In this document: piece after piece, positions 4,617-27,134 of the stretch
How positions within the stretch are numbered: position 1 is the first letter of the stretch
Layout: each line of letters begins with the position of its first letter
Assembly: GCA_002712765.1 (NCBI GenBank)
Contig: PAUP01000035.1
Coordinates: forward strand, 1-34,021
Direction of reading: 5' to 3'
Source of the DNA: Cytophagaceae bacterium
GTDB lineage: Bacteria; Bacteroidota; Bacteroidia; Flavobacteriales; Flavobacteriaceae
Length of the DNA: 34,021 nucleotides
Position numbers and translations under genes: made by a program
Notes under the pieces: model-generated
What the model saw: only the letters and a program-made list of their open reading frames with translations
What the model was told of the DNA's origin: nothing
Database searches by the model: none

Positions 4617-5187
4617 AACGCATCTTAATTTCTTGTGGAAGTCTGCTTTGCATAATAATAAATAATTTTTTTCTGATCCGAAACAATTTGACCTTTGTAT
4701 TGTTCTTGGTTAGCCCTATAATTTGAGCAATTTCTTCCAAGGATTGCTCGTGCAAATAATACAGAGTAATCAAAAAGGCATCGGCTTGAGGCAAAAGCGC
4801 AATGCACTGTACTACTTCAGCACGCTCGTATTGGGCGTCTATCTGTGCTTCTATTTCGGGGGTTGTTATGCTCAATACATTATCATGAATCTCATAGGCG
4901 TGGTGGGTGGGGCTGTTACGCTTTCGCGAAAGCGCATCCAGACACGCATTATAGGTAATACGATATAACCAAGTGCTAAATTTAGAATCACCTTTAAAAC
5001 TTTGCAATTTCTGAAAGGCTTTAAGAAATACATCTTGAGCGATCTCTTCTGCTTCTTCCCGCTGTTTGATCATGCGTATGGTTAGGGTAAAAACCAATTG
5101 TTTATAGCGATCTACTAAAATGGCAAAGGCATTAACATCACCGCCTAAGGTCTTCTCAATGATTATGTGATCTGGTGGATGGTTCAT
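4606..5187 (-). CDS. RNA polymerase sigma factor, ECF subfamily
   Basis: A 193-residue ECF sigma factor with only regions 2 and 4. Region 2 (about 22-95) contains YKQLVFTLTIRMIKQREEAEEIAQDVFLKAF and GDSKFSTWLYRITYNACLDALSRKR. Region 4 (about 128-178) contains the helix-turn-helix around SLEEIAQIIGLTKNNTKVKLFRIRKKL. It directs polymerase to alternative promoters. The predicted partner anti-sigma overlaps its 3' end. Its own promoter region carries TGTAACC-N15-GCGTC, the same element found in front of the divergent DUF6249 gene, so autoregulation is likely. The ATG is only 9 bases past the -10-like GCGTC, implying a leaderless or nearly leaderless mRNA. The next methionine would delete part of region 2, so this start is preferred. 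A 16-bp CTTTCGCGAAAG-type palindrome lies in the linker and encodes ALSRKR. Confidence 0.93.
   Translation of the reverse strand: MNHPPDHIIIEKTLGGDVNAFAILVDRYKQLVFTLTIRMIKQREEAEEIAQDVFLKAFQKLQSFKGDSKFSTWLYRITYNACLDALSRKRNSPTHHAYEIHDNVLSITTPEIEAQIDAQYERAEVVQCIALLPQADAFLITLYYLHEQSLEEIAQIIGLTKNNTKVKLFRIRKKLFIIMQSRLPQEIKMRYEK
4919..4934. repeat. Palindrome CGCTTTCGCGAAAGCG in sigma-factor gene
   Basis: A perfect 16-bp palindrome within the ECF sigma coding sequence, read there as ALSRKR. It is one of six copies in the window sharing the CTTTCGCGAAAG core. Confidence 0.9.
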
Positions 5188-5196
5188 TTTTTGTAA

Positions 5197-5223
5197 GACG
5201 CATAAACCGCTTATGCGGTTACA
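5197..5223 (-). promoter_or_regulatory. Probable ECF-type promoter of the sigma operon (TGTAACC-N15-GCGTC)
   Basis: On the minus strand TGTAACC occupies 5223-5217 and GCGTC 5201-5197, with 15 bases between. AAC in the -35 and CGTC in the -10 match the general ECF promoter pattern. The same seven- and five-base blocks with the same spacing lie in front of the divergent gene. Inverted repeats (CGCATAA at 5199-5205 with TTATGCG at 5211-5217, and AACCGC at 5205-5210 with GCGGTT at 5215-5220) fall inside this promoter only, and could be an extra operator. Confidence 0.72.
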
Positions 5224-5279
5224 CCTTAGTGCAACATATTATCTAATTGTATACTTCACTAGAAAAACATTAGATTTTC

Positions 5280-5306
5280 TGTAACCCATTTTACAATAAT
5301 TGCGTC
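5280..5306 (+). promoter_or_regulatory. Probable ECF-type promoter of the DUF6249 gene (TGTAACC-N15-GCGTC)
   Basis: TGTAACC at 5280-5286 and GCGTC at 5302-5306 are separated by 15 bases, identical in sequence and spacing to the element upstream of the divergent ECF sigma gene. A TSS shortly after 5306 would give a leader of about 40 bases before the ATG at 5353. No TAnnTTTG box is seen here. Confidence 0.72.
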
Positions 5307-5352
5307 ATAAGAGAGAAGAACAAAAAAACATTTCAATCTAAAAACAACAATT

Positions 5353-5694
5353 ATGGGAGGCGAAGTATTAATATTTATCTGTTTATTCTTAGTATTATTT
5401 GGAATTGCGTATTTGCATTATTCTACAAGAAACAAAGAGCGACTTGCCCTTATTGAAAAGGGAACTGATGCGGGCATCTTTAATCAATCACGAGAAACTC
5501 CCCCGGTGTGGAAAGTACTCGTATTAAATCTAGCGCTTTTGCTTATGGGTATAGGCATTGGCGTACTCTTAGCGTTGCTCATTCAGGAATCACTGGATTT
5601 TTACAGTGATGCCCTCTACCCAGGTTTAATCTTCTTGATGGCCGGCACAGGGCTCATGACAGGCTTTTTTATGACCAAAAAGTACGTCAACTAA
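5353..5694 (+). CDS. DUF6249-type small membrane protein, likely target of the neighbouring ECF sigma factor
   Basis: A 113-residue protein with three predicted TM helices, at about 4-24, 52-75 and 86-108. A cytoplasmic motif (RNKERLALIEKGTDAGIF) follows TM1, and the KERLALIEKG sequence is what I recognise from DUF6249 proteins of Bacteroidetes. No biochemical role is known to me. The gene is divergent from the ECF sigma operon, and both promoters carry TGTAACC-N15-GCGTC, so it is probably part of that sigma factor's regulon. It may take part in membrane-stress response or sensing; that is inference. A hairpin terminator follows the stop codon. Confidence 0.82.
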   Translation: MGGEVLIFICLFLVLFGIAYLHYSTRNKERLALIEKGTDAGIFNQSRETPPVWKVLVLNLALLLMGIGIGVLLALLIQESLDFYSDALYPGLIFLMAGTGLMTGFFMTKKYVN

Positions 5695-5715
5695 GCGCAT
5701 ACCAAAGATGAGATC

Positions 5716-5748
5716 AAGTCTAGACTCAAGCAGTTCTAGACTTTTTTT
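5716..5748 (+). terminator. Intrinsic terminator after the DUF6249 gene
   Basis: AAGTCTAGA (5716-5724) pairs with TCTAGACTT (5735-5743) across a 10-base loop and is followed by a T-run. Confidence 0.8.
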
Positions 5749-5783
5749 ATGCGTATCAAATCAATAGCGTGCACTAATCCTAA

Positions 5784-6497
5784 CTAGGCCAATAGCGGCA
5801 ACATATCACTAGCCTTTTCAAAAGATCTAAACTTTTGATGCTCGATCTCATAATCGATTTGCTCGTGAATCCAAGTTGTGTGAAAAGGAATGTGAAAGGC
5901 TGTTCCTCCTATTTCCAATACAGGAATAATATCTGATTTTAACGAATTACCCACCATCAAAAATTGCTCGGGGGCTATGTCCAAATGTGCAATGAGCTCT
6001 TTGTAGTTTTTGGGCTGCTTATCTGACATCACTTCGATGTGATGAAAATAAGGAGCAAGCCCCGAACGTTGCAACTTGCGCTCTTGATCTAGTAAATCGC
6101 CTTTGGTGGCCACAACCAATCGTATATTTTTCTCAGTCAAATGTTGCAATACCACTTCGATGCCGTCTATGAGTTCTACAGGGGCATTGAGCATTTCTTT
6201 CCCCAAGTCAATCAAAGCTTGGATCACCTCTAGGGTGACTGCGCCTTCTGTAATTTCGATAGCCGCTTCAATTAATGACAAGGCAAAGGGTTTTATACCA
6301 TAACCATAAAGCGGAAGATTGCGCATCTCCATTTCAAACAAGCGTTTTTGACATTCTTCATAGGGTAAATAGTCGCTTAAGAGGGCACAAAATTGATCTT
6401 CGGCATCTCTAAAAAAGGTTTCATTAATCCATAAAGTATCATCGGCATCAAAGGCAATAGCCTTAATGGATTGGAGAGATAGGGGTTGATCGTTCAT
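5784..6497 (-). CDS. HAD-superfamily hydrolase (phosphatase)
   Basis: A cytoplasmic haloacid-dehalogenase-fold phosphatase of about 237 residues. Motif I is FDADDTLW (about 15-22), holding the nucleophile and acid/base aspartates. Motif II is VVATKGD (about 127-133). The motif III lysine is in SDKQPKNYKEL (about 158-168), and motif IV is VGNSLKSDI. A helical cap (about 30-105) sits between motifs I and II, as in subfamily I enzymes such as phosphoglycolate phosphatases and YjjG-type nucleotidases. The substrate cannot be read from sequence. I start at 6497 (MNDQPLSLQSIKAIAF) because the extra 19 upstream codons (MRSIVFKPKK…) do not resemble the family. Confidence 0.88.
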   Translation of the reverse strand: MNDQPLSLQSIKAIAFDADDTLWINETFFRDAEDQFCALLSDYLPYEECQKRLFEMEMRNLPLYGYGIKPFALSLIEAAIEITEGAVTLEVIQALIDLGKEMLNAPVELIDGIEVVLQHLTEKNIRLVVATKGDLLDQERKLQRSGLAPYFHHIEVMSDKQPKNYKELIAHLDIAPEQFLMVGNSLKSDIIPVLEIGGTAFHIPFHTTWIHEQIDYEIEHQKFRSFEKASDMLPLLA

Positions 6498-6615
6498 ATG
6501 ATTAAAGGTACTAAAGAATCGCAGTTTTTTAGGCTTAAAGACAATACTTCTCAAAAAAATAAACGCTGCTTTAACTTCGTTGCGTCAAGCAAACCGCCTC
6601 CCAACTATCCCACAT

Positions 6616-6646
6616 AAAAAAAGCCCATGTTTTAAAAACATAGGCC
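6616..6646 (-). terminator. Intrinsic terminator after ettA
   Basis: Read on the minus strand, GCCTATGTTTT pairs with AAAACATGGGC (one G-T wobble) and is followed by a run of seven T. It lies just beyond the ettA stop codon. Confidence 0.85.
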
Positions 6647-6668
6647 TTGCACAGTGTCATCATAAAGG

Positions 6669-8360
6669 TTAACGCACCAATTTCTTGTATTTAATTCGTT
6701 TTGGCATCAAATCACCACCCAAGCGTTTTTTCTTGTTCTCTTCGTAATCAGAAAAACTGCCTTCAAAGAAATACACCTGACTGTCTCCTTCAAATGCCAA
6801 TATATGCGTACAGATACGATCTAAGAACCAACGGTCGTGACTAATAACGACAGCACAACCCGCAAAATTCTCTAAACCTTCTTCTAGCGCACGAAGTGTA
6901 TTGACATCGAGATCATTGGTAGGCTCATCCAGCAATAATACATTTCCTTCTTCCTTTAGCGTCATCGCTAGATGCAGGCGGTTACGCTCTCCTCCAGAAA
7001 GGGTGGCTACCTTTTTGTTTTGTTCGCTTCCGCTAAAGTTAAAACGGCTCAAATAGGCTCTAGAATTGACCTCCTTGCCTCCCATTAAAACCAATTCCTG
7101 CTCGTCAGAAAAATTTTGCCAGATTGTTTTGTCAGCATCAATATTACTATGACTCTGATCTACATAAGCGATCTTGGCTGTTTCTCCTACGGTAAAGGTC
7201 CCCTTATCGGGTTGCTCTTCGCCCATGATCATTTTAAAGATGGTCGTTTTACCAGCCCCATTGGGACCAATAATACCTACTATACCCGCTTGAGGTAGAT
7301 TAAAATTTAAGTCTTCATATAACAATTTGTCGCCAAAGGCTTTACTCACACCCTGAGCCTCTATCACATTCGTACCCAGACGCGGGCCATTTGGGATATA
7401 GATTTCTAATTTCTCATCGACTTGTTTTTGATCTTGGCTCAATAGCTTGTCGTAATTCTTTAAACGCGCCTTTTGTTTGGTTTGACGTCCTTTGGCTCCT
7501 TGTCTTACCCATTCCAGCTCTCGCTCTAAGGTCTTTTGACGTTTAGATGCTGTTTTGCTTTCCTGAGCCATACGCTTGGACTTTTGATCCAACCAAGAAG
7601 AGTAATTACCCTTCCAAGGGATACCTTCTCCTCGATCTAATTCCAAAATCCAACCCGCTACATTATCCAAGAAATAACGGTCGTGGGTAACAGCAATCAC
7701 CGTTCCTTTATACTGTGCGAGATGGTGCTCTAACCAATGTACAGACTCTGCGTCCAAGTGGTTGGTAGGCTCATCTAATAATAGTACGTCGGGTTCTTTA
7801 AGCAATAATCGACACAAAGCAACACGACGTTTCTCTCCTCCAGAGAGCACGCCAATTTTTTGATCGCCTGGCGGGGTGCGTAAGGCATCCATAGCGATTT
7901 CTAACTTGGTGTCTAGCTCCCAGGCTCCGCGCGCATCAATCTCATCTTGCAATACAGCTTGGCGTGCCATGAGCTTCTCCATTTTATCGGCATCACTATA
8001 TACCTCCTCTAGACCAAACTGATCATTAATACTATTGTACTCGTCAAGAATGGCTACAGTCTCGGCTGCACCTTCTTTAACCACTTCCAATACCGTTTTA
8101 TCAGGATCTAAGGTAGGTTCTTGCTCTAGATAGCCCACGGTATAATCTTGTGAAAAAACTACATCTCCTTGGTAGTTTTTATCAATACCTGCAATTATTT
8201 TCATCAAGGTAGATTTACCTGATCCGTTGAGACCTAATATGCCTATTTTGGCTCCGTAAAAGAAGCTTAGGTATATTTTTTTAAGTACAGGGGTCTGGGC
8301 GCCTGGATAGGTTTTTGAAACCCCAGACATTGAAAATATTATTTTTTTATCGTCGCTCAT
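6669..8360 (-). CDS. ettA: Energy-dependent translational throttle protein EttA (ABC-F ATPase)
   Basis: A cytoplasmic ribosome-associated ABC-F protein of about 563 residues, with two nucleotide-binding domains and no membrane segment. NBD1 has Walker A GLNGSGKST (about 42-50), signature LSGGEKRR and Walker B LLLDEPTNHLD. A charged linker with KGRQTKQKARLKNYDKL follows (about 290-310). NBD2 has [17 protein letters not shown] and LLLDEPTNDLD. The N-terminus IIFSMSGVSKTYP and the overall length match EttA. In E. coli EttA gates the first elongation steps according to the ATP/ADP ratio. The start is set at 8360 (MSDDKK) because the family begins there and a TATTTTTG promoter box lies upstream. 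The ABC-F subfamily assignment is strong; EttA-equivalent activity in this lineage is inferred. Confidence 0.94.
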   Translation of the reverse strand: MSDDKKIIFSMSGVSKTYPGAQTPVLKKIYLSFFYGAKIGILGLNGSGKSTLMKIIAGIDKNYQGDVVFSQDYTVGYLEQEPTLDPDKTVLEVVKEGAAETVAILDEYNSINDQFGLEEVYSDADKMEKLMARQAVLQDEIDARGAWELDTKLEIAMDALRTPPGDQKIGVLSGGEKRRVALCRLLLKEPDVLLLDEPTNHLDAESVHWLEHHLAQYKGTVIAVTHDRYFLDNVAGWILELDRGEGIPWKGNYSSWLDQKSKRMAQESKTASKRQKTLERELEWVRQGAKGRQTKQKARLKNYDKLLSQDQKQVDEKLEIYIPNGPRLGTNVIEAQGVSKAFGDKLLYEDLNFNLPQAGIVGIIGPNGAGKTTIFKMIMGEEQPDKGTFTVGETAKIAYVDQSHSNIDADKTIWQNFSDEQELVLMGGKEVNSRAYLSRFNFSGSEQNKKVATLSGGERNRLHLAMTLKEEGNVLLLDEPTNDLDVNTLRALEEGLENFAGCAVVISHDRWFLDRICTHILAFEGDSQVYFFEGSFSDYEENKKKRLGGDLMPKRIKYKKLVR

Positions 8361-8435
8361 ACTAGCTTGGTTGTTTAATATTAGGTCTATGCCCAAATCA
8401 GATTAGGCCGTGACATCGTCATTTGCAAATTCCTT

Positions 8436-8443
8436 CAAAAATA
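8436..8443 (-). promoter_or_regulatory. ettA -7 promoter box
   Basis: TATTTTTG on the minus strand is an exact TAnnTTTG match between pabB and ettA. A TTTG lies about 25 bases upstream inside the pabB 3' end, longer than the usual spacing, so the -33 is doubtful. Confidence 0.5.
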
Positions 8444-8453
8444 CAAAATTAGG

Positions 8454-9761
8454 TTAGGATTTACCTTCCAAAACACTACGCATTGCACGCGCTTTGAGCA
8501 GGCATTCTTCATATTCTTTATCAGGATCTGAAGCTGTGGTAATGGCACCACCTACATGGTAAGAAATGTACTGCTTGTCTGCATTATACAGTATGCTTCT
8601 GATAATGACATTAAAATCAAAATCCCCCTTAGGATCAAAATAACCTACAGCGCCACTGTAAAGCCCGCGCTTTGAGGCCTCCAAAGCTTCGATGAGTTGC
8701 ATTGCCCGTACTTTTGGAGCTCCTGTCATACTGCCCATAGGAAAGGTGGTGCGCAACACATCCACTGGTGTTATTTGTGAATCTACCTCAGAGACCACCG
8801 TAGAAATCATCTGATGTACTTGTTTAAAAGCGTAAACTTTGCAGAGTTCTTCGACCTTCACCGATCCTTTTTTGGCCGTCCGGGATAAGTCATTTCGCAC
8901 CAAATCTACGATCATTATATTTTCTGAGCGCTCTTTAGGATCTTCAGATAACGCTTTCGCGAAAGCGTGATCAGACAACACATCACTGCCTCTAGCCGCG
9001 GTACCCTTGATAGGTTGACTCACAATCTTGGCGCCTATCTTTTTGATATAGCGCTCTGGTGAGGCCGAGAGCAAGTACTGTTGATCGAGCCTGAGAAAAG
9101 TAGCAAATGGCGGCCTACTGATGGCGTTGAGTTGGGTGTAGGTAGCCCAAGGGTCTATGCTACCCTGAGCATAAAACTCCTGACACAAATTGGCCTCGTA
9201 GATATCTCCTCTTGCGATGTGATCAAGCAAGGTGCGCACTTTGTTTTTATAGGCCTCTTTGTGAATTCTAAGCGAGATAGCGAGTTGACTCGTTGATGCT
9301 GTCACATCCGTATTATTGGATTTGATTTTAGAAATATGCTTCCAATCTTGGTCCATTTCATCATCTACCATCCTCAGGTAATGCAACTCGATGCGATCGT
9401 GGTAAAGTAAAAAAAGCTTTTTGGGTTGAAAAAAACAAAGGTCAGAAAAACCGAGATGGTCTTCATTATTGGACGAAAGTTTTTCGGTGTCATTTTTTAA
9501 ATCGTATCCCAGATAACCAAAAATCCAATCTTGAGTACTTTGCTGGTATTCTTCTAATCGATCAAATCCCCCTTCGCTATCGGTTTGTATACTTGTGAAG
9601 GCTTCGACGGCCAGAAGTCCTTCAAATTCTGGATAGGTTTGGCCTTCATAACTATTGCTATCGAGCCATACGACCTCTTCAAACTGTTTTGCCCAGGTCA
9701 ACAAACTGCGCTTACAGTCTTGAATATTTGAAAATGTATACCTCTTGACGCTTCTCATCAT
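8454..9761 (-). CDS. pabB: Aminodeoxychorismate synthase component I
   Basis: A chorismate-binding enzyme of about 435 residues that makes 4-amino-4-deoxychorismate for folate. The N-terminal half is the variable TrpE-like beta-sandwich (DWIFGYLGYDLKND, about 78-91). The C-terminal catalytic half has GDIYEANLCQ, the active-site lysine motif PIKGTAARG, DLVRNDL, TFPMGSMTGAPK and the end motif HVGGAITTASDPDKEYEE. Lysine in PIKGT (versus alanine in anthranilate synthase PIAGT) favours PabB over TrpE. folE, another folate/pterin gene, is also in the window but not adjacent. No PabA or PabC neighbour is visible. An 18-bp CTTTCGCGAAAG-type palindrome lies in the catalytic domain, encoding HAFAKAL. 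Confidence 0.93.
   Translation of the reverse strand: MMRSVKRYTFSNIQDCKRSLLTWAKQFEEVVWLDSNSYEGQTYPEFEGLLAVEAFTSIQTDSEGGFDRLEEYQQSTQDWIFGYLGYDLKNDTEKLSSNNEDHLGFSDLCFFQPKKLFLLYHDRIELHYLRMVDDEMDQDWKHISKIKSNNTDVTASTSQLAISLRIHKEAYKNKVRTLLDHIARGDIYEANLCQEFYAQGSIDPWATYTQLNAISRPPFATFLRLDQQYLLSASPERYIKKIGAKIVSQPIKGTAARGSDVLSDHAFAKALSEDPKERSENIMIVDLVRNDLSRTAKKGSVKVEELCKVYAFKQVHQMISTVVSEVDSQITPVDVLRTTFPMGSMTGAPKVRAMQLIEALEASKRGLYSGAVGYFDPKGDFDFNVIIRSILYNADKQYISYHVGGAITTASDPDKEYEECLLKARAMRSVLEGKS
8951..8968. repeat. 18-bp palindrome ACGCTTTCGCGAAAGCGT in pabB
   Basis: The longest perfect copy of the dispersed CTTTCGCGAAAG palindrome. It is read as HAFAKAL in PabB. Confidence 0.9.
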
Positions 9762-9889
9762 AGTGGCTGCAAAAGTAAGGCTAGATAGCTAGGCTACCAA
9801 CAACAGTCATAAAAAGAGCGAGAATACTTATATTTAATAGCCCGATGACAATAGCCTATCGCGCAATTTAACCTTAAACACATACAACT

Positions 9890-10261
9890 ATGAAACTTGG
9901 TGCTTTTTCTATGAGTCTTAGTGTAAAAGACATTAATGCCTCAAAAGATTTTTACGAAAAATTAGGATTTACTGTTTTTGCTGGCGATGTACAACAGCAC
10001 TATCTCATCTTAAAAAATGGAAATGCCCTTATCGGCATTTTTGAAGGTATGTTTGAAGATAACATTCTAACCTTTAATCCTGGATGGGATGAGAATGCCA
10101 ATACCCTTGACAAATTTGACGATGTTAGAGCCATACAAAAAGAGCTGCTGGCCAAAGGCATGACCCTAGAACGCAACGCCGACCCAGATACTCAAGGGCC
10201 TGCAAGTATAGTATTGGTAGATCCAGATGGTAACCCCATACTCATTGATCAGCACGTCTAA
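9890..10261 (+). CDS. VOC-family protein (glyoxalase/bleomycin-resistance fold)
   Basis: A small cytoplasmic protein of 123 residues with the paired beta-alpha-beta-beta-beta pattern of the vicinal oxygen chelate fold. Module 1 is [25 protein letters not shown] (about 5-30). Module 2 ends with [19 protein letters not shown], where DPDGNPI is the characteristic last strand. Glu/His metal ligands cannot be assigned with certainty, so the enzymatic role is unknown. Its stop codon overlaps the ATG of the next gene (TAATG), so the two are translationally coupled. It is divergent from pabB. Confidence 0.88.
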
Positions 10262-10731
10262 TGCCTAGGGTCCTTACGCTTGAGCTGCAACAAGACATTG
10301 CTGCCAATGCCGGTTTGGTATGGGATGTTATTAGCAACATTGCAGAAGCACCCCGCTATATGTCTGGCATAGCGGCTACTCAAATTCTAAGCAAACCCGA
10401 AGAAGGGTTATTAGGCCTTAGATGGAAAGAAACTCGAGTCTTATACGGTAAGCAAGCCGATGAAATACTTGAAATCATTGAGGTAGTTCCTAAAAAGAGC
10501 TATACCGTTGTGGCGTTTAATCACGGCATGCGATATCACTCACGTATGCAAGTCATCCCAAAAGACAGCCTTAGTATATTAAAAATGAGTTTTACGGCCA
10601 CTCCAAAAACCTTGAGCGCCAAAATCATGAGTAACGTGATGTGGCCATTCATACGAAAGTCTATGAATACTATACTGCTCCAAGACCTAAGAGACATTAA
10701 AACACAGGCCGAGCAATTGGCTTGTCATTGA
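10261..10731 (+). CDS. SRPBCC-family (START/polyketide-cyclase-like) protein
   Basis: A 156-residue protein with the helix-grip pattern of SRPBCC proteins. The N-terminal strand LTLELQQDIAANAGLVWDVISNIAEAPRYMSGI is followed by GLRWKETR and DEILEIIEVVPKKSYTVVAF, and a long C-terminal helix runs at about 120-150. These proteins bind hydrophobic ligands in a deep cavity; ligand and role are unknown here. A one-base TAATG overlap couples it to the upstream VOC protein, suggesting a joint detoxification or small-molecule-binding role, which is inferred only. Confidence 0.82.
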   Translation: MPRVLTLELQQDIAANAGLVWDVISNIAEAPRYMSGIAATQILSKPEEGLLGLRWKETRVLYGKQADEILEIIEVVPKKSYTVVAFNHGMRYHSRMQVIPKDSLSILKMSFTATPKTLSAKIMSNVMWPFIRKSMNTILLQDLRDIKTQAEQLACH

Positions 10732-10781
10732 AATATACTAAAACACGATAATTTGGGTTATTACCTAAATACCTTCACGCT

Positions 10782-16032: not shown

Positions 16033-16443
16033 TTATTTATTATATAGATAATCCTGAAGGATAATGGTTGCGCTTATTTGATCAACCAATGCTTTATTTC
16101 GTCGTTTCTTTTTCCCGATCCCACTATCAATCATGGTTTGAAACGCCATTTTGGAAGTAAAGCGTTCATCCTGTCTAATAATTTCTAGATTAGGAAATTC
16201 CATTTGCACGCTTTCGCGAAAGCTACTAATGGCAGCTTCAACTTGAGATGGCTCATTATTCATACGTTTGGGTTCTCCAATGACCATTGCTTCAACCTTT
16301 TCTTCACTCATATACTGCTTTAAAAAGGACATCAACGTTTTGGTATCGACCGTAGTAAGGCCTGAGGCAATAAGCTGTAACTCATCGGTTACGGCTATTC
16401 CTGTACGTTTGGTTCCAAAATCTATCGCAATAAGGCGCGCCAT
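16033..16443 (-). CDS. ruvX: Putative Holliday-junction resolvase / pre-16S rRNA nuclease YqgF
   Basis: A 136-residue RNase-H-fold protein. It contains ARLIAIDFGTKRTGIAVTDE (first catalytic Asp, about 7), VIGEPKRMNNEPSQ, and RQDERFTSKMA with the conserved DERxTS. The C-terminal segment KKRRNKALVDQISATIILQDYL provides the last Asp. Family members process the 5' end of 16S rRNA in E. coli and have been proposed as junction resolvases. The start is taken at 16443 (MARLIAIDFG) because the longer frame runs through the promoter box at 16459-16466. It heads the ruvX-def-DUF5606-mazG cluster. A CTTTCGCGAAAG palindrome lies mid-gene, read as SSFRESV. Confidence 0.93.
   Translation of the reverse strand: MARLIAIDFGTKRTGIAVTDELQLIASGLTTVDTKTLMSFLKQYMSEEKVEAMVIGEPKRMNNEPSQVEAAISSFRESVQMEFPNLEIIRQDERFTSKMAFQTMIDSGIGKKKRRNKALVDQISATIILQDYLYNK
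16210..16223. repeat. Palindrome GCTTTCGCGAAAGC in ruvX
   Basis: A perfect 14-bp copy of the dispersed palindrome. Here it is in a third reading frame (FRES). Confidence 0.9.
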
Positions 16444-16458
16444 AGTTAAAATTTGGGG

Positions 16459-16466
16459 CAAAAATA
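16459..16466 (-). promoter_or_regulatory. ruvX operon -7 promoter box
   Basis: TATTTTTG on the minus strand is an exact TAnnTTTG match 15 bases ahead of the ruvX ATG at 16443. Confidence 0.6.
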
Positions 16467-16556
16467 AACAATTCTTAAGGATGAAATGCCTTACAACTAC
16501 CCGAATTGCCAAAAAAGAAATATGCTCGATACGGGTATCCTAGCCATCTATATTTT

Positions 16557-17418: not shown

Positions 17419-18483
17419 TTGAAATTTCTGGTCATTCAACAAAAAATGATAGGTGATGTGCTCACCTCTTCCATCTTGTGTGAAGCGCTAAAAATGCGAT
17501 TCCCAGAAAGTGAGGTGCATTACCTGATCAATAGTCACACGGCGGCCGTGGTAGCTCATCATCCCTTTATTGATCAATTGATATACTATACCCCAGCCAT
17601 TGAAAAAAGCAGTCGTTTACAAAAACAATTGCGACAAGAGCTTTACGATCATACCTATGACGTTGTAATTGATGTTTATTCAAAATTGGGCAGTGCTCGT
17701 ATGGCAAGAGCTACCAAGGCAAAGATGATTATAGGGTATAAAAAGTGGTATACTCATACGGCCTATACCCACAGCTATACTTATAATGAGGTGGCCCAAA
17801 CCGAAGCGGGTTTGGCCATAGAAAACAGAATGAAATTACTTCAAGCGATCGATAGTAATTTTCCTGCAGCCATCAAGCCCAAGATTTATTTGACCGCTGC
17901 AGAGATCGCTTTCGCGAAAGCGCAATTAGACCAACACCAACTGCTACAGAAGGGGTCTCTATTTATGATTGGGGTTTTGGGAAGTAGTCCGGACAAAACC
18001 TATCCACTAGAGCAACTCGCGCACATTCTAGATGCACTGGTCGCTGAGACTTCAGGACAACTCCTATTTAATTACATCCCAAGCCAACTAGAGCAGGTTG
18101 AGGCGTTGTACCACTATTGCAAGGCCGAGACAAAAAAGCATATTCACCTTGAGATTTATGGCAAGAGTTTAAGAGAGTTTATGGCCCTTACCTACCATTG
18201 TAAGGCTCTTATCGGTAATGAAGGTGGTGCTGTAAATATGGCCAAAGCCCTTGAAGTACCTACCTTTGCTATCTTTTCGCCTTGGATAAAAAAGCAAGCC
18301 TGGGCCTTATATGAAAACGATAAAAATGTAGCCGTACACCTAGCCGATCTCTATCCAGAATACTATGATAGGCCCAATTATAAAAAGCTTAAGAAAAAGG
18401 TAAGCTCCTATTACGACCAATTGAAATCGTCTTATGTCATTGCTCGTTTACAAGAGTTTCTAAGGGTCATTGAGCAAATTTAG
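17419..18483 (+). CDS. Glycosyltransferase family 9 (heptosyltransferase-like)
   Basis: A 354-residue GT-B fold protein that probably adds a sugar to LPS core or other surface glycan on the cytoplasmic face. The N-terminus KFLVIQQKMIGDVLTSSILCEALKMRFPESEVHYL is the typical GT9 acceptor domain. The C-terminal nucleotide-sugar domain contains FMIGVLGSSPDKTYP, YGKSLREFMALTYHCKALIGNEGGAVNMAKAL and PTFAIFSPW. The start codon is TTG at 17419. An in-frame stop lies just upstream, and the first ATG (codon 10) would delete the first beta-strand. The 3' end overlaps the convergent epimerase gene by 17 bases. A CTTTCGCGAAAG palindrome at 17907 encodes IAFAKAQ. Confidence 0.9.
   Translation: MKFLVIQQKMIGDVLTSSILCEALKMRFPESEVHYLINSHTAAVVAHHPFIDQLIYYTPAIEKSSRLQKQLRQELYDHTYDVVIDVYSKLGSARMARATKAKMIIGYKKWYTHTAYTHSYTYNEVAQTEAGLAIENRMKLLQAIDSNFPAAIKPKIYLTAAEIAFAKAQLDQHQLLQKGSLFMIGVLGSSPDKTYPLEQLAHILDALVAETSGQLLFNYIPSQLEQVEALYHYCKAETKKHIHLEIYGKSLREFMALTYHCKALIGNEGGAVNMAKALEVPTFAIFSPWIKKQAWALYENDKNVAVHLADLYPEYYDRPNYKKLKKKVSSYYDQLKSSYVIARLQEFLRVIEQI
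17907..17922. repeat. Palindrome CGCTTTCGCGAAAGCG in GT9 gene
   Basis: A perfect 16-bp copy of the dispersed palindrome, read as AFAKA. Confidence 0.9.
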
Positions 18484-20289: not shown

Positions 20290-20297
20290 TAGTTTTG
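20290..20297 (+). promoter_or_regulatory. -7 promoter box of the WaaE-like GT2 gene
   Basis: TAGTTTTG is an exact TAnnTTTG match 16 bases before the ATG at 20314, back to back with the divergent box at 20258-20265. The -33 is unclear. Confidence 0.5.
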
Positions 20298-20313
20298 CGC
20301 TGTACCACATTTT

Positions 20314-21072: not shown

Positions 21073-21156
21073 CACCTAATTGTAGGCCAACAGACCATTT
21101 GAAATTTGCTATCTTTAACTAAGTAGTTGCACCATTATCTAATCGATTTAAGACCT

Positions 21157-22242
21157 ATGTCAAATAAATACATATTGTTGCTGTGTTGCCTTTCAATTTC
21201 CTTAGCATTGTCTGCTCAGGATTTGAGTTTTGAAGCCTACAATCCCACCTCGACTTTAGTGGTTCCTGGCAAAAAAATCACTCGTGCCAAATATCCTTTT
21301 ATCGATGTACACGGGCATCAGTATCGCATGCCTACCCAAGACCTATCTCCAGTAGTAGCAGCTATGGATACTTTAAATATGGCAATTATGGTCAATCTAA
21401 GCGGTCGCTCTGCAGACCTCCTACAACAAAGTGTTCAAAACATTGCCAATAATTATCCCAACCGCTTTGTCGTTTTTGCCAATATTGATTTTAGTGATGC
21501 GGGTCGTGAGGGGTGGATCAAAAAAACAGTAGCTCAATTAAAAGAAGATGTAAAAAACGGAGCACGTGGTTTGAAAATTTATAAGAGTTTAGGACTGAGG
21601 TATAAAAAACCAAATGGTGATCGTCTGGCCGTCAATGACCCCATCTTAGATCCAATTTGGGAAACCTGTGCCGCATTGAAGATACCCGTTTTGATTCATA
21701 CCGCCGATCCCAAATCGTTCTGGGATCCCTATGATGGAAACAATGAACGCTGGCTCGAATTAAAAACACACCCAAGAAGAAAACGTGAGGCCAATGATCC
21801 TGCTCCTTGGGAGACGCTTATCTCAGAACAACATCAATTGTTTAGAAAACACCCTAATACCACCTTTATCAATGCACATATGGGTTGGTTGGCCAATGAC
21901 TTGGCTCAATTAGGTCGATTACTGGACGAGCTACCTAATATGAATGTGGGCATAGGAGCCATCATTGCCGAATTGGGACGGCAACCTCGTTTTGCCAGAG
22001 CGTTTTTTATCAAATATCAGGATCGCATATTGTTTGGAAAAGACAGCTGGAAGCCAGAAGAGTTTCCTACCTATTTTAGAGTTCTAGAAAGCGCCGATGA
22101 GTATTTTAGGTACCATAAAAAATATCATGCTTTTTGGCCCATGTACGGTCTTGACTTGCCCGACGAGGTGCTCAAAAAGGTGTACTACAAAAATGCACTT
22201 CGTATCGTGCCTGGTTTAGATCATTCTGCCTTTGCCAAGTAA
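21157..22242 (+). CDS. Secreted amidohydrolase-family protein
   Basis: A protein of about 361 residues with a Sec signal peptide (MSNKYILLLCCLSISLALSAQ, cleavage probably after SAQ), so it works in the periplasm or envelope. A TIM-barrel amidohydrolase (Amidohydro_2 type) follows: first-strand DVHGHQ (about 50-55, HxH metal pair), GARGLKIYKSLG, IHTADPKSFWDPYDG (third His), NAHMGWL (fourth His) and LFGKDSW carrying the last Asp. The final Asp is usually in F-G-T/S-D; here the residue before it is Lys. The substrate is unknown. The start at 21157 is set by the signal peptide. Its stop codon directly abuts the convergent DinB gene. Confidence 0.88.
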   Translation: MSNKYILLLCCLSISLALSAQDLSFEAYNPTSTLVVPGKKITRAKYPFIDVHGHQYRMPTQDLSPVVAAMDTLNMAIMVNLSGRSADLLQQSVQNIANNYPNRFVVFANIDFSDAGREGWIKKTVAQLKEDVKNGARGLKIYKSLGLRYKKPNGDRLAVNDPILDPIWETCAALKIPVLIHTADPKSFWDPYDGNNERWLELKTHPRRKREANDPAPWETLISEQHQLFRKHPNTTFINAHMGWLANDLAQLGRLLDELPNMNVGIGAIIAELGRQPRFARAFFIKYQDRILFGKDSWKPEEFPTYFRVLESADEYFRYHKKYHAFWPMYGLDLPDEVLKKVYYKNALRIVPGLDHSAFAK

Positions 22243-22779
22243 TTACCAGTTTTCTCGAATCACGGTGTTTTTAATATGCATGTAGTGATGCATACTATGC
22301 CATGCGTATTGCCCCACATTTTGACGAAGATTTATTTTTTTATCACCATCAGGATGAATAAAACTGCGTTCCCATTGCTGGGTAGACAATGACTTTAAAA
22401 GACGTACTAGTTTATAATGTACCACCTCCAAATGTCTTAATGACCACTCTACAGGCATACCTTTTAGATCAGGAAGATCGGTCCATTTTTTTTCTAAATA
22501 AGGTTTAATTACTGGCGTGTCTTCTGTTAAGGCCCACTTAAAGCGTGTGTAGCTGTGATGATGACTATCGGCGAGGTGGTGAACTACCTGACGTATGGTC
22601 CAACCTTCTGGTCTATATGGAGTATCTAACTGCGTATCGGGCATCTCGCTTACTAGATCTCGTAATTGTGCTGGCATCACTTCTAAGATGGTGATCCACT
22701 CATTCAATTTTTGATCAGAAATGTGATCTGGCATCGAATATTTCCCAATAGGGTACTGTAATTTTGTTAGGTTTTCCAT
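22243..22779 (-). CDS. DinB-superfamily protein, YfiT/bacillithiol-transferase type
   Basis: A 178-residue four-helix-bundle protein. The motifs YRPEGWTIRQVVHHLADSHH, YTRFKWALTEDTPVIKPYLE and GQYAWHSMHHYMHI are those of the YfiT group of DinB-like metalloproteins, with His ligands near 67 and in the WHSMHH stretch. Relatives are annotated as putative metal-dependent hydrolases or bacillithiol S-transferases, and the thiol co-substrate is not known for this lineage. It is cytoplasmic. It abuts the convergent amidohydrolase gene with zero intergenic bases, so the two transcripts must overlap. The PPIase terminator lies just upstream, so it has its own promoter, which I could not identify. Confidence 0.87.
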   Translation of the reverse strand: MENLTKLQYPIGKYSMPDHISDQKLNEWITILEVMPAQLRDLVSEMPDTQLDTPYRPEGWTIRQVVHHLADSHHHSYTRFKWALTEDTPVIKPYLEKKWTDLPDLKGMPVEWSLRHLEVVHYKLVRLLKSLSTQQWERSFIHPDGDKKINLRQNVGQYAWHSMHHYMHIKNTVIRENW

Positions 22780-22790
22780 GGGTTAAAAGT

Positions 22791-22823
22791 AAAAAAGTGC
22801 GCTCGCTAGAGCACACTTTTTTT
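22791..22823 (-). terminator. Intrinsic terminator after the PPIase gene
   Basis: The arms AAAGTGCGCTC and GAGCACACTTT (one C-A mismatch) with a 4-base loop are flanked by A- and T-runs. It lies 46 bases beyond the PPIase stop on the minus strand and looks bidirectional. Confidence 0.8.
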
Positions 22824-22868
22824 ATTAGTACTTATTCACATTCAATAAAGTATGTGATATGTGTTTAA

Positions 22869-23801
22869 TTATTTGACATCCATTAATTCGACATCAAAGA
22901 TTAAGGTGGCGTCTGGAGGAATTACTCCACCTGCGCCAGCACTACCGTAGGCCAAATCTGAAGGAATGACCAAACGGGCTTTATCGCCAACGCTCATTAA
23001 TTGTATGCCTTCGTCCCAACCTGGAATTACTTGACCTACCCCTAAGGTAAAGTCTATAGGCTGATTGCGCTTGTAAGAACTATCAAATACAGTTCCGTCG
23101 GTGAGTTGTCCTTTATAATGTACAGAAACTGTTTTTCCTTTTGCTGCGGGCTGTCCTTTTGCTTTGTGAACAAACTGATAACGCAAACCGCTATCGGTTT
23201 GATCAAAACCTGCTGCCACCTTTTCAATTTCGGCAGCTTGAGCGGCCTTGGTCTCGGCAATACGCTTAGCTCGTGCACCTTCAAAAGTTCTAAAGGCCTC
23301 AACAGCATTCCATTCTTGCGCCTGATCTCCTACTCGTATAATTTCTACCTTGTCCATAGTGTCACCTTGCGCTATGGCGTCTACCGTATCCTGACCTTCT
23401 ACTACTTTTCCAAAAACAGTATGCTTACCATCTAACCAATCTGTGGCAATATGCGTAATAAAAAACTGGCTCCCATTAGTACCAGGACCAGCATTGGCCA
23501 TACTCAAAACACCAGGACCGTCGTGTTTTAATTCTGGGTGAAACTCATCGTCAAACTTATATCCTGCATCACCCGTTCCTGTACCAGTTGGGCAACCTCC
23601 TTGAATCATAAAATCTGGAATAACCCTGTGAAATTTTAGACCGTCGTAATAAGGTGTGCCTTGTGGCTTTACCTCATTTTCTAAATTCCCTTCGGCTAAG
23701 GCAACAAAATTACCTACAGTTCCTGGAGTCTTTTCGTGTTCTAATTTTACTAGAATTTCGCCTTTAGGCGTTGTAAACTTTGCGTATATACCGTCTTGCA
23801 T
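22869..23801 (-). CDS. Bifunctional peptidyl-prolyl isomerase: cyclophilin-FKBP fusion
   Basis: A 310-residue protein joining two prolyl-isomerase folds. The cyclophilin domain (about 1-165) contains [19 protein letters not shown] with the catalytic Arg, then [12 protein letters not shown] and [15 protein letters not shown] helical Ala/Glu/Lys-rich linker lies at about 165-205 ([20 protein letters not shown]). The FKBP domain (about 206-310) contains [34 protein letters not shown] and [27 protein letters not shown], with ligand-pocket residues intact. There is no signal peptide, so it is cytoplasmic. Such dual-family immunophilins are known from Bacteroidetes and some protists. It has its own promoter and terminator. 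Confidence 0.94.
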
Positions 23802-23823
23802 GCTACTCTTTTTTAATGAGGTG

Positions 23824-23831
23824 CAAAGATA
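23824..23831 (-). promoter_or_regulatory. PPIase -7 promoter box
   Basis: TATCTTTG on the minus strand is an exact TAnnTTTG match. A TTTA 19 bases upstream (23851-23854) could serve as -33. Confidence 0.6.
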
Positions 23832-23882
23832 CGCAGGAAGTATGAGGTGATAAAATGGAAAAGGCCTAATTTAAGGCAGCAC

Positions 23883-26081
23883 TTAGTTGGCCACCTCGCT
23901 CATAAACTTAATACGGTAGAGTCTCAACTCTTCATCGTCATAATCGCCATCAAATTCTTCAAGAGCAGCCTCTATCTTATCGGTTTCGGCATCCATAAAG
24001 TACTCGTGGAGTTCTTCTTGCTGGTCTTCGTCCAATAACTCATCTATCCAGTAATCGATATTGAGTTTGGTCCCGCTAAAGACAATAGCCTCCATTTCTT
24101 TAATAAAGTCTGGCATGTCTTTCCCTTTCGCAGAAGCGATATCATCAAGCGGTAATTTTCGATCTACATTTTGAATGATGTACAATTTAAGGGCACTATT
24201 GGCTCCTGTACTTTTAACCACCAAATCATCGGGTCTGATAATGTCGTTATCTTCGACATAACTAGCGATAAGCGAGACAAATTCTTTTCCAAACTTTTTG
24301 GCCTTTCCTTCTCCTACACCATGTACAGCGCCTAGCTCTTCTAAGCTCATAGGGTACTTGACCGCCATATCGTGAATAGAGGGGTCTTGAAAGACAACAA
24401 AAGGAGGTACATCCGCTTTTTGAGCCACCTTTTTACGCAAATCTTTAAGCAGGGCTACCAATTGTTTATCGGCCTCTCCACCCGCTCTAGCTGCCGATAC
24501 AATGGCATTGTCGGTCTTTTCATCAAAGACGTGATCATCGGCCATCATAAATGACACAGGACTGGCAATAAAGTCATGACCTTTGTCTGTTAGTTTGACC
24601 ACCCCATAGGTTTCTATGTCCTTTCTGATATAACCCGCTACCAAACTTTGACGCAAAAGTGCATGCCAATAGGCTTTATCGCGATCTTTACCAGACCCAA
24701 AAAAGGGCTGTTCATCGGTTTTATGAGATGAGATGATCGCATTTTCTTTTCCAATCATAGTAAAGACAACCTCCTTACTTTTATAGATCTGGTTGGTGTC
24801 TCGAATTACTTTGAGTAGTTTTTGCAATTCGTCTTTGGCCTCGTGTTTCTTTTTTGGGAAGCGCATATTGTCATCGAGCATACCGCCTTCGCCGGTCTCA
24901 TTGTCAAAAGCTTCTCCAAAATAGTGCAAAATAAATTTTCGTCTAGAGATACTTGTTTCGCAGTAGGCTACCACTTCTTGTAGCAAGGCATGTCCTATTT
25001 CCTGTTCGGCGACAGGCTTGCCACTCATAAATTTTTCTAACTTTTCGATGTCCTTATAGGCGTAAAAAGCCAAACAATGTCCTTCGCCCCCATCGCGACC
25101 CGCTCTACCCGTTTCTTGATAATAGCTTTCGATACTCTTAGGGATGTCGTGATGAATTACAAAGCGCACATCGGGTTTGTCAATACCCATCCCAAAGGCA
25201 ATGGTTGCCACCACCACATCGGTATCTTCCATCAAAAACATATCTTGATGCCGCACTCGGGTCTTGGCATCCAGCCCTGCGTGATAGGGTACCGCTTTTA
25301 GACCGTTTACCTGTAGGGTTTGAGCGAGTTCTTCTACACGCTTTCGCGAAAGACAATAGATGATACCACTCTTCCCTTCATTTTGCTTGACAAAGCGGAT
25401 AATATCTGCGTCTACATTTTTGGTCTTAGGTCGTATCTCGTAATAGAGATTAGGCCTATTAAAAGAAGCTTTAAACGTATTGGCATTTGTGATCCCTAGA
25501 TTTTTTAAAATATCCTCTTGAACTTTTGGTGTAGCCGTAGCGGTAACAGCTATAATCGGAATATCGTCACCTATTCTTTTGATGATACGACGCAAGTTGC
25601 GGTATTCTGGTCTAAAATCATGACCCCACTCAGAGATACAATGTGCTTCATCTACAGCCATAAAAGAAATCTTGACCGTGCGTAAAAACTCTACATTCTC
25701 TTCTTTGGTCAAGGATTCTGGAGCTACGTATAACAACTTAGTCACCCCATTGGTGATGTCTTCTTTAACGCGTTTTACCTCGTTTTTTGTTAGAGAAGAA
25801 TTAAGGACATGCGCAATTCCTTCCTGTTGCGAAATCCCTCTAAGGGCATCTACCTGATTTTTCATCAAGGCAATAAGCGGCGAGACAACAATTGCTGTGC
25901 CTTCTTGTATAAGGGCAGGTAATTGGTAACATAAAGATTTACCACCTCCTGTGGGCATAATCACAAAGGTGTGATTCCCATTTACGATGCTTGTAATTAC
26001 CTCTTCCTGAAGACCTTTGAATTGGCTAAAGCCAAAGTATTTTTTTAGTGATGTGTGTAAGTCTAATTCTACCGAATTCAT
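23883..26081 (-). CDS. recQ: ATP-dependent DNA helicase RecQ
   Basis: A superfamily 2 3'-5' helicase of about 732 residues acting in recombination and fork repair. It contains FGFSQFKGLQEEVI (motif 0), MPTGGGKSLCYQLPA (Walker A), VDEAHCISEWGHDFRPEY (DEAH plus aromatic loop), VTATATP, IAFGMGIDKPDVRFVIHHD and YYQETGRAGRDG (motif VI). The RQC region follows (about 340-500), then an HRDC domain (about 500-600, LGAVHGVGEGKAKKFG) and an acidic C-terminal tail. In the RQC zinc site only one cysteine (VAYCETS) is present; the expected CxxC…C after HYFGE is replaced by NETGEGGMLDDN. The start is 26081 (MNSVELDL), because the longer frame runs through the promoter. A CTTTCGCGAAAG palindrome encodes CLSRKRVEE. 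Confidence 0.96.
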   Translation of the reverse strand: MNSVELDLHTSLKKYFGFSQFKGLQEEVITSIVNGNHTFVIMPTGGGKSLCYQLPALIQEGTAIVVSPLIALMKNQVDALRGISQQEGIAHVLNSSLTKNEVKRVKEDITNGVTKLLYVAPESLTKEENVEFLRTVKISFMAVDEAHCISEWGHDFRPEYRNLRRIIKRIGDDIPIIAVTATATPKVQEDILKNLGITNANTFKASFNRPNLYYEIRPKTKNVDADIIRFVKQNEGKSGIIYCLSRKRVEELAQTLQVNGLKAVPYHAGLDAKTRVRHQDMFLMEDTDVVVATIAFGMGIDKPDVRFVIHHDIPKSIESYYQETGRAGRDGGEGHCLAFYAYKDIEKLEKFMSGKPVAEQEIGHALLQEVVAYCETSISRRKFILHYFGEAFDNETGEGGMLDDNMRFPKKKHEAKDELQKLLKVIRDTNQIYKSKEVVFTMIGKENAIISSHKTDEQPFFGSGKDRDKAYWHALLRQSLVAGYIRKDIETYGVVKLTDKGHDFIASPVSFMMADDHVFDEKTDNAIVSAARAGGEADKQLVALLKDLRKKVAQKADVPPFVVFQDPSIHDMAVKYPMSLEELGAVHGVGEGKAKKFGKEFVSLIASYVEDNDIIRPDDLVVKSTGANSALKLYIIQNVDRKLPLDDIASAKGKDMPDFIKEMEAIVFSGTKLNIDYWIDELLDEDQQEELHEYFMDAETDKIEAALEEFDGDYDDEELRLYRIKFMSEVAN
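25341..25352. repeat. Palindrome CTTTCGCGAAAG in recQ
   Basis: A perfect 12-bp core copy with CG on its left and AC on its right. Read as LSRKR, the same frame as in the sigma gene. Confidence 0.88.
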
Positions 26082-26102
26082 GTATTCTACTGCATTTTTG
26101 CA

Positions 26103-26110
26103 TACCTTTG
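26103..26110 (+). promoter_or_regulatory. kpsF-tatC -7 promoter box
   Basis: TACCTTTG is an exact TAnnTTTG match. It lies downstream of, and facing, the recQ promoter, so the two start sites would overlap. The -33 is unclear. Confidence 0.55.
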
Positions 26111-26117
26111 TTATATC

Positions 26118-26148
26118 TAAATATACTAAATTCCCTACTGTATACAAA
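26118..26148 (-). promoter_or_regulatory. recQ promoter
   Basis: On the minus strand TTTG (26148-26145) is followed by exactly 19 bases and TATATTTA (26125-26118), one base from the Bacteroidetes consensus TTTG-N19-TAnnTTTG. It lies 36 bases ahead of the recQ ATG at 26081. Confidence 0.68.
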
Positions 26149-26165
26149 CTTTAAAAAACCAAGTT

Positions 26166-27134
26166 TTGAACATTCATCAGCAGATTATTGCTAGTGCTCA
26201 AAAAACCATTACCATTGAGCAAGAAGCCATAGCCCATCTGACCTCCCTTATAGACGAAGAATTTGCCCAGGCCGTAGCCACCATTTACAGCGCTAAAGGT
26301 CGTGTGATCATCACCGGAATAGGAAAAAGTGCTATTATCGCCCAAAAAATTGTTGCAACCTTAAACAGTACGGGAACTCCGGCTATTTTCATGCACGCCG
26401 CAGACGCCATACACGGTGATCTGGGAACCATTCAGCATGACGATGTGGTGATTTGTATCTCAAAAAGTGGAAATACTCCAGAAATAAAGGTATTGGTCCC
26501 TTTAATCAAAGACACCAATAATACCTTAATTGCCATTACCTCTAATCGAGATTCCTTTTTAGGGACTCAGGCCGATTATGTTTTACACGCTTTCGCGAAA
26601 GCGGAAGCCTGCTCCAACAATTTGGCACCCACAACAAGCACAACGGCACAATTGGTCATAGGCGATGCCGTAGCTGTGGCTTTATTAGATCTCAAAGGAT
26701 TTTCGAGTACCGACTTTGCCAAATATCATCCAGGCGGTGCTTTGGGTAAAAAATTATATTTGCGGGTAAGTGATCTCACTGGGATGCACGACAAACCACA
26801 AGTAACACCAGATGCTAGTGTAAAAGAAGTCATTGTTGAGATTTCTGCAAAAATGCTAGGGGTTACTGCAGTGGTGGAGAACAAAAAAATAGTAGGCATA
26901 ATCACCGATGGCGATTTAAGAAGGATGCTGGCTACCAATGACCAATTAGACGGGCTTAGTGCCGCCTCAATAATGAGCCCAGCTCCTAAAACAATTGCCA
27001 ATGACGCCATGGCTATAGCTGCCAAAGAACTTTTAGAAACTCACGGCATTAGTCAATTACTCGCTATTGATGACAAGGGCGTTTATGCAGGAGTAGTACA
27101 CATCCATGATTTGATTAAAGAAGGTATTATCTAA
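26166..27134 (+). CDS. kpsF: KpsF/GutQ-family D-arabinose-5-phosphate isomerase
   Basis: It converts ribulose-5-phosphate to arabinose-5-phosphate, the first step toward Kdo for LPS. The protein has 322 residues. The SIS isomerase domain (about 30-200) contains GRVIITGIGKSAIIAQKI, FMHAADAIHGDLGTI, CISKSGNTPE, EACSNNLAPTTSTTAQLVIGDA and KYHPGGALGKKL. Tandem CBS domains (about 205-322) contain ITDGDLRR and GVVHIHDL. The start is TTG at 26166, because the next methionine is deep inside the SIS domain. Its stop overlaps the tatC ATG (TAATG). lptB, also LPS-related, is close by. A CTTTCGCGAAAG palindrome encodes HAFAKAE just before the conserved EAC motif. Confidence 0.93.
   Translation: MNIHQQIIASAQKTITIEQEAIAHLTSLIDEEFAQAVATIYSAKGRVIITGIGKSAIIAQKIVATLNSTGTPAIFMHAADAIHGDLGTIQHDDVVICISKSGNTPEIKVLVPLIKDTNNTLIAITSNRDSFLGTQADYVLHAFAKAEACSNNLAPTTSTTAQLVIGDAVAVALLDLKGFSSTDFAKYHPGGALGKKLYLRVSDLTGMHDKPQVTPDASVKEVIVEISAKMLGVTAVVENKKIVGIITDGDLRRMLATNDQLDGLSAASIMSPAPKTIANDAMAIAAKELLETHGISQLLAIDDKGVYAGVVHIHDLIKEGII
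26588..26603. repeat. Palindrome CGCTTTCGCGAAAGCG in kpsF
   Basis: A perfect 16-bp copy of the dispersed palindrome, read as AFAKA. Confidence 0.9.

Follow-up and report, generated by a model that had tools for sequence, protein, structure and literature searches.

A hyper-abundant, quasi-evenly spaced palindrome in Dokdonia and Nonlabens, and its possible role as a marker of self-DNA

The 34,021-nt contig PAUP01000035.1 from the draft genome of a Cytophagaceae bacterium (assembly GCA_002712765.1; family Flavobacteriaceae), referred to here in its whole length as the window, carries the same 12-bp palindrome, CTTTCGCGAAAG, inside six of its genes, raising the question of what keeps such a word there and what it is for. 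We found that this palindrome is a lineage-specific DNA site with two-fold symmetry, which occurs in 297-937 copies per genome, is distributed quasi-regularly, and is kept at most of the positions that can be aligned between two species. Its even spacing, together with its preservation amid DNA that has otherwise changed, points to a protein that reads the motif as a marker of the chromosome.

A scan of the window recovered the 12-mer, which is its own reverse complement, at exactly the six places where the original prediction had located it, each inside an open reading frame (ORF), and the flanking letters are consistent with the longer palindromes claimed there. On the minus strand, the host genes of these unstranded sites are a sigma-70 factor gene (4606-5187; Pfam Sigma70_r2/r4), with a 16-bp palindrome at 4919-4934 (core 4921-4932) read as LSRKR; a pabB-like gene (8454-9761; Pfam Chorismate_bind), with an 18-bp palindrome at 8951-8968 (core 8954-8965) read as AFAKA; ruvX (16033-16512; Pfam RuvX), with a 14-bp palindrome at 16210-16223 (core 16211-16222) read as FRES; and recQ (23883-26147; Pfam RecQ domains), where the palindrome is limited to the 12 bp at 25341-25352. 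On the plus strand, they are a glycosyltransferase family 9 gene (17419-18483; Pfam Glyco_transf_9), with a 16-bp palindrome at 17907-17922 (core 17909-17920) read as AFAKA, and a kpsF-like gene (26166-27134; Pfam SIS and CBS), with a 16-bp palindrome at 26588-26603 (core 26590-26601). Altogether the motif is read as AFAKA three times, as LSRKR twice and as FRES once. Markov models of orders 1-3 predict 0.0014-0.0029 exact copies in the window (about 0.002), and the 12-mer is indeed far rarer by chance than once per 34 kb, as had been estimated by hand. No copy with one mismatch was found in the window, and matches with up to two mismatches numbered 10, as compared with a mean of 1.21 over 100 shuffles.

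The original prediction called for a genome-wide count against a Markov model. In the draft genome to which the window belongs (2.77 Mb in 107 contigs, 78% complete), we counted 383 copies of CTTTCGCGAAAG, 369 of which extend to GCTTTCGCGAAAGC, and none of the same pattern read backwards. All genomes of the same genus (18/18) were rich in the motif, with 383-937 copies in genomes that differ in size and completeness, and so were all genomes of a second genus (23/23; 297-879 copies). In 400-kb samples of G149, a complete genome of the window's genus, and of G166, from the second genus, CTTTCGCGAAAG was by far the commonest palindrome of 12 bp, with 110 and 86 sites, respectively, as compared with 0.01-0.03 expected (Markov orders 1-3). 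Only these two genera exceeded 19 copies in a family survey of 149 genomes, which were sampled from a larger group with each genus represented once, the remaining genera having 0-19; in an order survey of 196 genomes, a draw that did not include the second genus, only the window's own genome was rich, the next-highest count of the 14-mer being 4. The observation is therefore confirmed, and is wider and stronger than first claimed. A few other genera have intermediate counts that lie well above the reversed control (13 copies in G144, 19 in G051, 19 in G076 and 11 in G042); in G144, the 7 listed of 13 places are each on a separate contig, and these copies may be old remnants or separate transfers.

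We take the window's genus to be Dokdonia and the second genus to be Nonlabens, because G149 is 94.6% identical over 8 kb to a named Dokdonia locus, as compared with 68-72% for the best Nonlabens loci, and because the best match of G166 is a locus of BBFL7 (74%). Among 80 listed of at least 108 motif-bearing stretches in named genomes, 31 came from Dokdonia, 24 from Nonlabens (four of them BBFL7 scaffolds that we assigned there) and 25 from others, 24 of which hold a single copy. The placement of the window's genome rests on its grouping with G149, since its own locus matches are sparse: in a small set of motif-bearing loci, the only match of the window is to a Nonlabens locus (642 bp at 74.8%), and a single Dokdonia locus is matched, at 68%, by 15 further loci from the window's genome. 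RecQ identity, by which Nonlabens (G010, 74%) comes far down the list, suggested an independent gain of the motif in two distant genera, an idea that we did not retain. A ParA-ParB-neighbour tree of 29 genomes joined the two genera, at a weakly supported node (68) and with a long branch leading to Nonlabens, and in aligned codons two of the seven mappable Dokdonia sites were exact in Nonlabens and one more was apparently one base off, a comparison that is biased upward because some Nonlabens loci were fetched for holding the motif. A single older origin of the motif in both genera is at least as likely.

Between G149 and its relative G153 (266 kb aligned, 82.7% identity), 62 of the 68 alignable sites were perfect, a count that leaves out the 42 of 110 G149 sites lying outside alignable sequence. 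Among random 12-mers, only 21.5% were perfect in coding and 33.0% in intergenic DNA, and among 12-mers located 60-100 bp from sites, 25.7% (106/413). An alignment of recQ and kpsF across 18 congeners showed how individual copies come and go. The recQ copy is perfect in 8/18 genomes, where it forms the longest invariant run (20 columns) of the aligned stretch, the seven other carriers being 71-73% identical to the window's sequence; the other 10 genomes have a place of equal length with different codons (CTTACGCGCGAG, TTTACGTGCAAG, etc.), in one case with a single mismatch. The kpsF copy is present in 3/18 genomes, with different codons in place in 14 and a gap in one. These alignments support that the motif is gained or lost by in-place substitution at recQ and kpsF, the two coding copies aligned, in agreement with what had been proposed for these two hosts; intergenic copies fall in gappy alignments. 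Nine genomes with neither the recQ nor the kpsF copy hold copies outside ORFs approximately 1.6 and 2.7 kb away, which may replace the missing ones; however, two of the eight recQ carriers, G161 and G165, also have a non-ORF copy close to the first position, as does G157 close to the second.

The motif had been described as intragenic. This holds for all six copies in the window, but in the three relatives sampled the motif is strongly enriched between genes, with densities per kb between and inside genes (delimited with a simple ORF caller of our own) of 1.206 vs 0.143 in G149, 1.083 vs 0.154 in G153, and 0.733 vs 0.154 in G166. Coding copies nevertheless make up 43-64% of the total (47/110 in G149 and 55/86 in G166, 400 kb each; 119/246 in 860 kb of G149), and convergent, tandem and divergent gaps all contain the motif. 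Protein constraint provides no explanation for the copies, as was originally argued, given that coding copies are read in three frames and that the strongest enrichment is found between genes. The density in coding DNA was modestly lower in unshared (10 sites in 109 kb; 0.092 per kb) than in shared stretches (37 sites in 248 kb; 0.149 per kb).

The sites also keep apart from one another. Over 860 contiguous kb of G149, 5 kb of which was masked, the gaps between sites had a coefficient of variation (CV) of 0.664, with 4 gaps shorter than 500 bp and 9 shorter than 1 kb, as compared with medians of 1.068, 46 and 71, respectively, in 2000 simulations that preserved the numbers of coding and intergenic sites; none of the simulations (0/2000) matched the observed CV or the observed count below 1 kb. 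The gap histogram has its mode at 2.5-3.5 kb, and the spacing in G153 agrees (CV 0.614, gamma shape 2.54). In 20 samples of 20 kb taken round one 3.29-Mb chromosome, we found 1-7 copies each and no visible gradient from origin to terminus; the samples neighbouring the origin, which is probably near 0.74 Mb judging by a canonical parS pair, hold 6 and 3 copies and are not special. The poorest sample (1 site) appears island-like because, by reading of its sequences, it contains integrase, metal-transport-type ATPase and methyltransferase-like ORFs. The largest gaps in G149 (16.7 and 16.8 kb) consist mostly of giant ORFs of 4431 and 5060 amino acids (aa). Neither of these two ORFs (G149:C1:288426-301721 and 305125-320307) includes the motif, which lies between them; each adjoins a 318-aa secreted-protein-like ORF, the two having identical first 75 residues, which suggests that the pair is a tandem duplication.

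The core of the site spans 16 bp, CGCTTTCGCGAAAGCG, and is embedded in graded flanks. Up to a distance of about 30 bp from the centre, the 5' flanks of both strands are T/G-rich and C-poor, whether a copy is coding or intergenic: C makes up 0.085-0.087 of the ten positions (11-20) to the left of the 12-mer, as compared with a background of 0.19-0.20, with GGG, GTT, TGT and GTG raised among flank trimers and C-containing trimers reduced. At position -9 from the centre, A prevails in G149 (0.62) and T in G166 (0.63); named Dokdonia loci agree with G149 (A 0.58), and base usage is more mixed both among the Nonlabens loci with names (T 0.40, C 0.31, A 0.26) and among those from the window's genome (A 0.37, T 0.30). 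Complementarity between the two flanks is close to the expectation from independence (e.g., 0.73 vs 0.73 at -8), and as the flanks show no clear pairing signal, the site appears to be read as duplex DNA and not as a hairpin. We infer that selection acts on each half of a DNA duplex, with a putative dimeric protein as the reader.

We tentatively favor, with somewhat less than even confidence, a role in marking self-DNA for uptake, homologous recombination or both, read by a dimeric DNA-binding protein, because a benefit saturating within a few kb, the preference for non-coding DNA and the strand-specific GT-rich arms would suit a word whose action is on DNA ends or fragments. A putative dimeric protein would recognize the site as a mark of the cell's own DNA, and loci near a perfect copy would be favored in uptake and/or recombination, with no gain from a further copy placed nearby; the outcome would be over-representation, saturation at one copy per approximately 3 kb, and a preference for unconstrained DNA. 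DNA uptake sequences are considered to act in this manner, and Chi plays such a part for RecBCD. RecA prefers GT-rich DNA, and the arrangement seen here, with a GT-rich strand leading into the site 5' to 3' on either side, would be suited to its loading. In a more specific version, which we hold to be doubtful, the motif would be a symmetric self-DNA marker of Bacteroidetes, in which a dimer would sit on a 16-bp duplex with GT-rich 5' arms, a ruler of about 3 kb would apply, and both strands would be RecA-ready, allowing entry or repair from either side. We know of no other uptake or recombination word of this symmetric kind.

The proposal draws on likenesses to two known systems. High copy number, even spacing and non-coding enrichment are shared with the uptake signal sequences (USS) of Pasteurellaceae and the DNA uptake sequences (DUS) of Neisseriaceae, which passages of one account describe as evenly spaced, favoring non-coding DNA and not palindromic, with 1008 copies given there for Chi in E. 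coli K-12 (PMC1939737). Unlike USS and DUS, the motif is palindromic, lies on some viral contigs, and has a small single-mismatch class. Extended USS have a long graded flank, comparable to that of the motif. Chi (GCTGGTGG; E. coli, RecBCD) resembles the motif in abundance and in its GT-rich strand character; it is, however, an 8-nt, non-palindromic and strand-oriented word read in single-stranded DNA, whereas the motif is symmetric and apparently read as duplex.

Several observations weigh against a self-DNA marker. The motif is palindromic, whereas known uptake sequences and Chi are not, and its spacing is weaker in G166 (CV 0.824, near the 5th percentile for randomly placed sites; 2 gaps of less than 500 bp vs 9 expected; gamma shape 2.07). 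A slight excess of pairing occurs at -9 in both genera (0.49 vs 0.43; 0.56 vs 0.46), and at -12 pairing is raised in G166 (0.48 vs 0.38) but lowered in G149 (0.29 vs 0.38). In 860 kb of G149, copies with a single mismatch number 43, as compared with 246 perfect ones; this small class still reaches 29 times the expected number, the two-mismatch class 2.6 times, and copies with three or more mismatches are near expectation, so that only a highly specific drive could be at work. The analysis connected no receptor, binding protein or competence gene with the motif, though no search aimed at competence genes was made. Finally, uptake sequences are expected to be rare in phages, and 14 of the 16 viral records of unassigned host that we counted whole carry 2-5 copies, although this is not a random sample, the records having been selected, in most cases because they hold several copies, from the 43 stretches that are GC-poor among 120 with the motif. 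One such viral contig (L068, 1-14278) is a temperate siphovirus by its ORFs, which include tail-type genes and an integrase-like ORF. By contrast, two Nonlabens phages without annotated integrase, which we took to be lytic (35.7 kb, and 35.0 of 35.7 kb examined of the second), contain no copies, even with two mismatches allowed, and no TCGCGA, where the density in G166 would predict about 8 copies in each. This absence, the modestly lower site density of unshared coding DNA and the single site in the integrase-bearing sample are points in favor of a self-DNA marker. A query of phage and plasmid collections with a 30-base consensus returned weak matches only (E 2 or worse). In four viral records (G380, G381, G386 and G389), a 4480-bp spacing between copies recurs.

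The viral contigs are better accommodated if the motif is a chromosome-organising or replication/repair site, bound every 3 kb or so by a dimeric nucleoid or repair protein, with selection on spacing keeping one site per interval. This is a close rival, which fits nearly as well overall and to which we give substantial weight, short of preferring it: even spacing without a visible origin-to-terminus gradient, strong conservation of individual sites, and the presence of copies in viral contigs, one of them clearly temperate, together with their absence from the two phages lacking an annotated integrase, are all in line with it. Spacing cannot be strict, though, as copy number varies from 383 to 937 within the genus and gaps reach 17 kb; no protein has been tied to the site, and such a role alone does not explain the GT-rich 5' flanks. 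Two-fold symmetry and similar length are shared with parS, the Noc-binding site and matS, and TTTC..GAAA resembles parS, but those sites are fewer and regional, while the motif is chromosome-wide. A segregation role of the parS type, one of the functions originally suggested, is not supported because canonical parS pairs are kept in 11/11 motif-rich genomes (10/18 motif-poor genomes matched at ≤1 mismatch) and because the motif is not concentrated near oriC. The resemblance to parS, together with low ParB_N scores (108.9-112.2 bits in 11 motif-rich genomes vs 111.7-119.9 in 18 motif-poor ones), had also prompted the idea of a switch in ParB, which was rejected: an alignment of the helix-turn-helix (HTH) region showed no consistent change, and the sole column separating the two groups (63) lies outside it. 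A comparison of parts of the genomes for a driver protein of outlying similarity shared between them yielded no candidate, the 40 most similar pairs listed looking like ordinary conserved genes. As for the parB loci themselves, the motif lies within parB at nearly the same place in 6/6 Nonlabens genomes (L411, L414, L418, L419, L422 and L423) and once just after parB in 5/5 Dokdonia genomes (L412, L413, L415, L420 and L421); one Nonlabens genome has a second, longer ParB of 598 aa (G171:C1:1269093; L417), with similar second matches (a 599-aa frame) in G118 and G021.

The parallel originally drawn with the cyanobacterial HIP1 (GCGATCGC) is borne out by the genome-wide occurrence of the motif: like HIP1 and the alternate highly iterated palindromes (HIPs), it is a short exact palindrome whose copies, numbering in the hundreds to thousands, lie both within and between genes, greatly exceed what Markov models predict, and are conserved at individual sites between species, as those of HIP1 are. 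A chromosome-organising role has been proposed for HIP1, and its selection and periodicity were reportedly addressed by Xu, Lawrence and Durand in 2018. The motif differs in its longer and different core (12-16 bp with graded flanks), its occurrence in a non-cyanobacterial phylum, its strongly intergenic placement and its repulsion below 1 kb. In Elhai's model for such palindromes, an internal sequence (TCGCGA or CGCG) is marked by an orphan methyltransferase, and mismatch repair directed by the methyl mark then drives sequences stepwise towards the palindrome. PMC4390886 links HIP1 and alternate HIPs to such enzymes in cyanobacteria; Bacteroidetes, Flavobacteria, TCGCGA and CTTTCGCGAAAG are all missing from its text. 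We consider this explanation improbable for the present motif, which has no C5 (PF00145) or PF01555 methyltransferase common to all motif-rich genomes tested, PF00145 being absent from 4/11 and over-cut-off PF01555 from 7/11 (MethyltransfD12 and type I enzymes were not searched). G154 and G155 match neither family and G152 has no PF00145 and only a sub-cut-off PF01555 match, yet each of the three holds 734-843 copies; methylation, another of the roles first put forward, thus finds no support in the form of a shared enzyme of these types. Outermost-base differences account for 9/17 single-mismatch copies in G149 (400 kb), as reported for HIP1, but for just 1/9 in G166. In addition, away from the sites TCGCGA occurs about as often as base composition predicts (42 vs 52 and 64 vs 59 in 400 kb), and a flank preference reaching about 30 bp is long for a methyltransferase. 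A structured nucleic acid, whether RNA hairpin, terminator or cruciform, is very improbable: the core could form a short stem, there is the small pairing excess at -9, and folding of the six sites in the window gave z-scores between -1.88 and 0.03, but flank complementarity has no consistent excess, T-runs are rarer after intergenic palindromes than 200 bp away (13/127 vs 23/127), unlike what an intrinsic terminator would show, and 43-64% of the copies are coding, in all three frames, with no Rfam family above threshold, and no tRNA, in the window. Hardly credible, finally, is a tiny mobile or inserted element, such as a REP-like sequence or the remains of a transposon. Hundreds of near-identical copies might suggest one, and insertion is possible for the intergenic copies in gappy alignments; however, recQ, and kpsF bar the one gapped genome, were substituted in place without change of length, no longer repeated unit extends past the graded flanks, and copies repel rather than cluster. 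REP/RAYT elements (repetitive extragenic palindromes and their associated transposases) are extragenic inserted palindromes, often paired, whereas the motif is intragenic by in-place substitution at two aligned places and depleted in close pairs. The original interpretation as a whole is thus partly supported.

Outside the two genera, copies are few and often clustered. In several genera, a pair 933 bp apart lies in one ORF, of outer-membrane efflux type, beside a multicopper-oxidase-like ORF. This copper-type island was transferred recently, as the stretch in an Aquimarina locus (L176, 158-1102) is 97-99.98% identical to L246, L247 and L249; identity to L244 is 77%. The motif also serves as a tracer of gene transfer, as for this island common to several Flavobacteriaceae genera.

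In the accessible portions of the open-access literature, including work on palindromes, uptake and methylomes in these genera, we found no description of the motif, and 11 of its letters in one paper on another subject. Hyper-abundant genomic palindromes have posed the question of their function ever since the description of HIP1. The motif is a new, long and evenly spaced variant of such palindromes in Dokdonia and Nonlabens, and gives a second case in a phylum other than that of HIP1, in genera with named strains. With its long unambiguous core, readable flanks and strong spacing, and with no C5 or PF01555 enzyme common to the genomes tested, it makes the question of function testable, in a system where uptake, recombination, nucleoid and methylation models can be separated experimentally.

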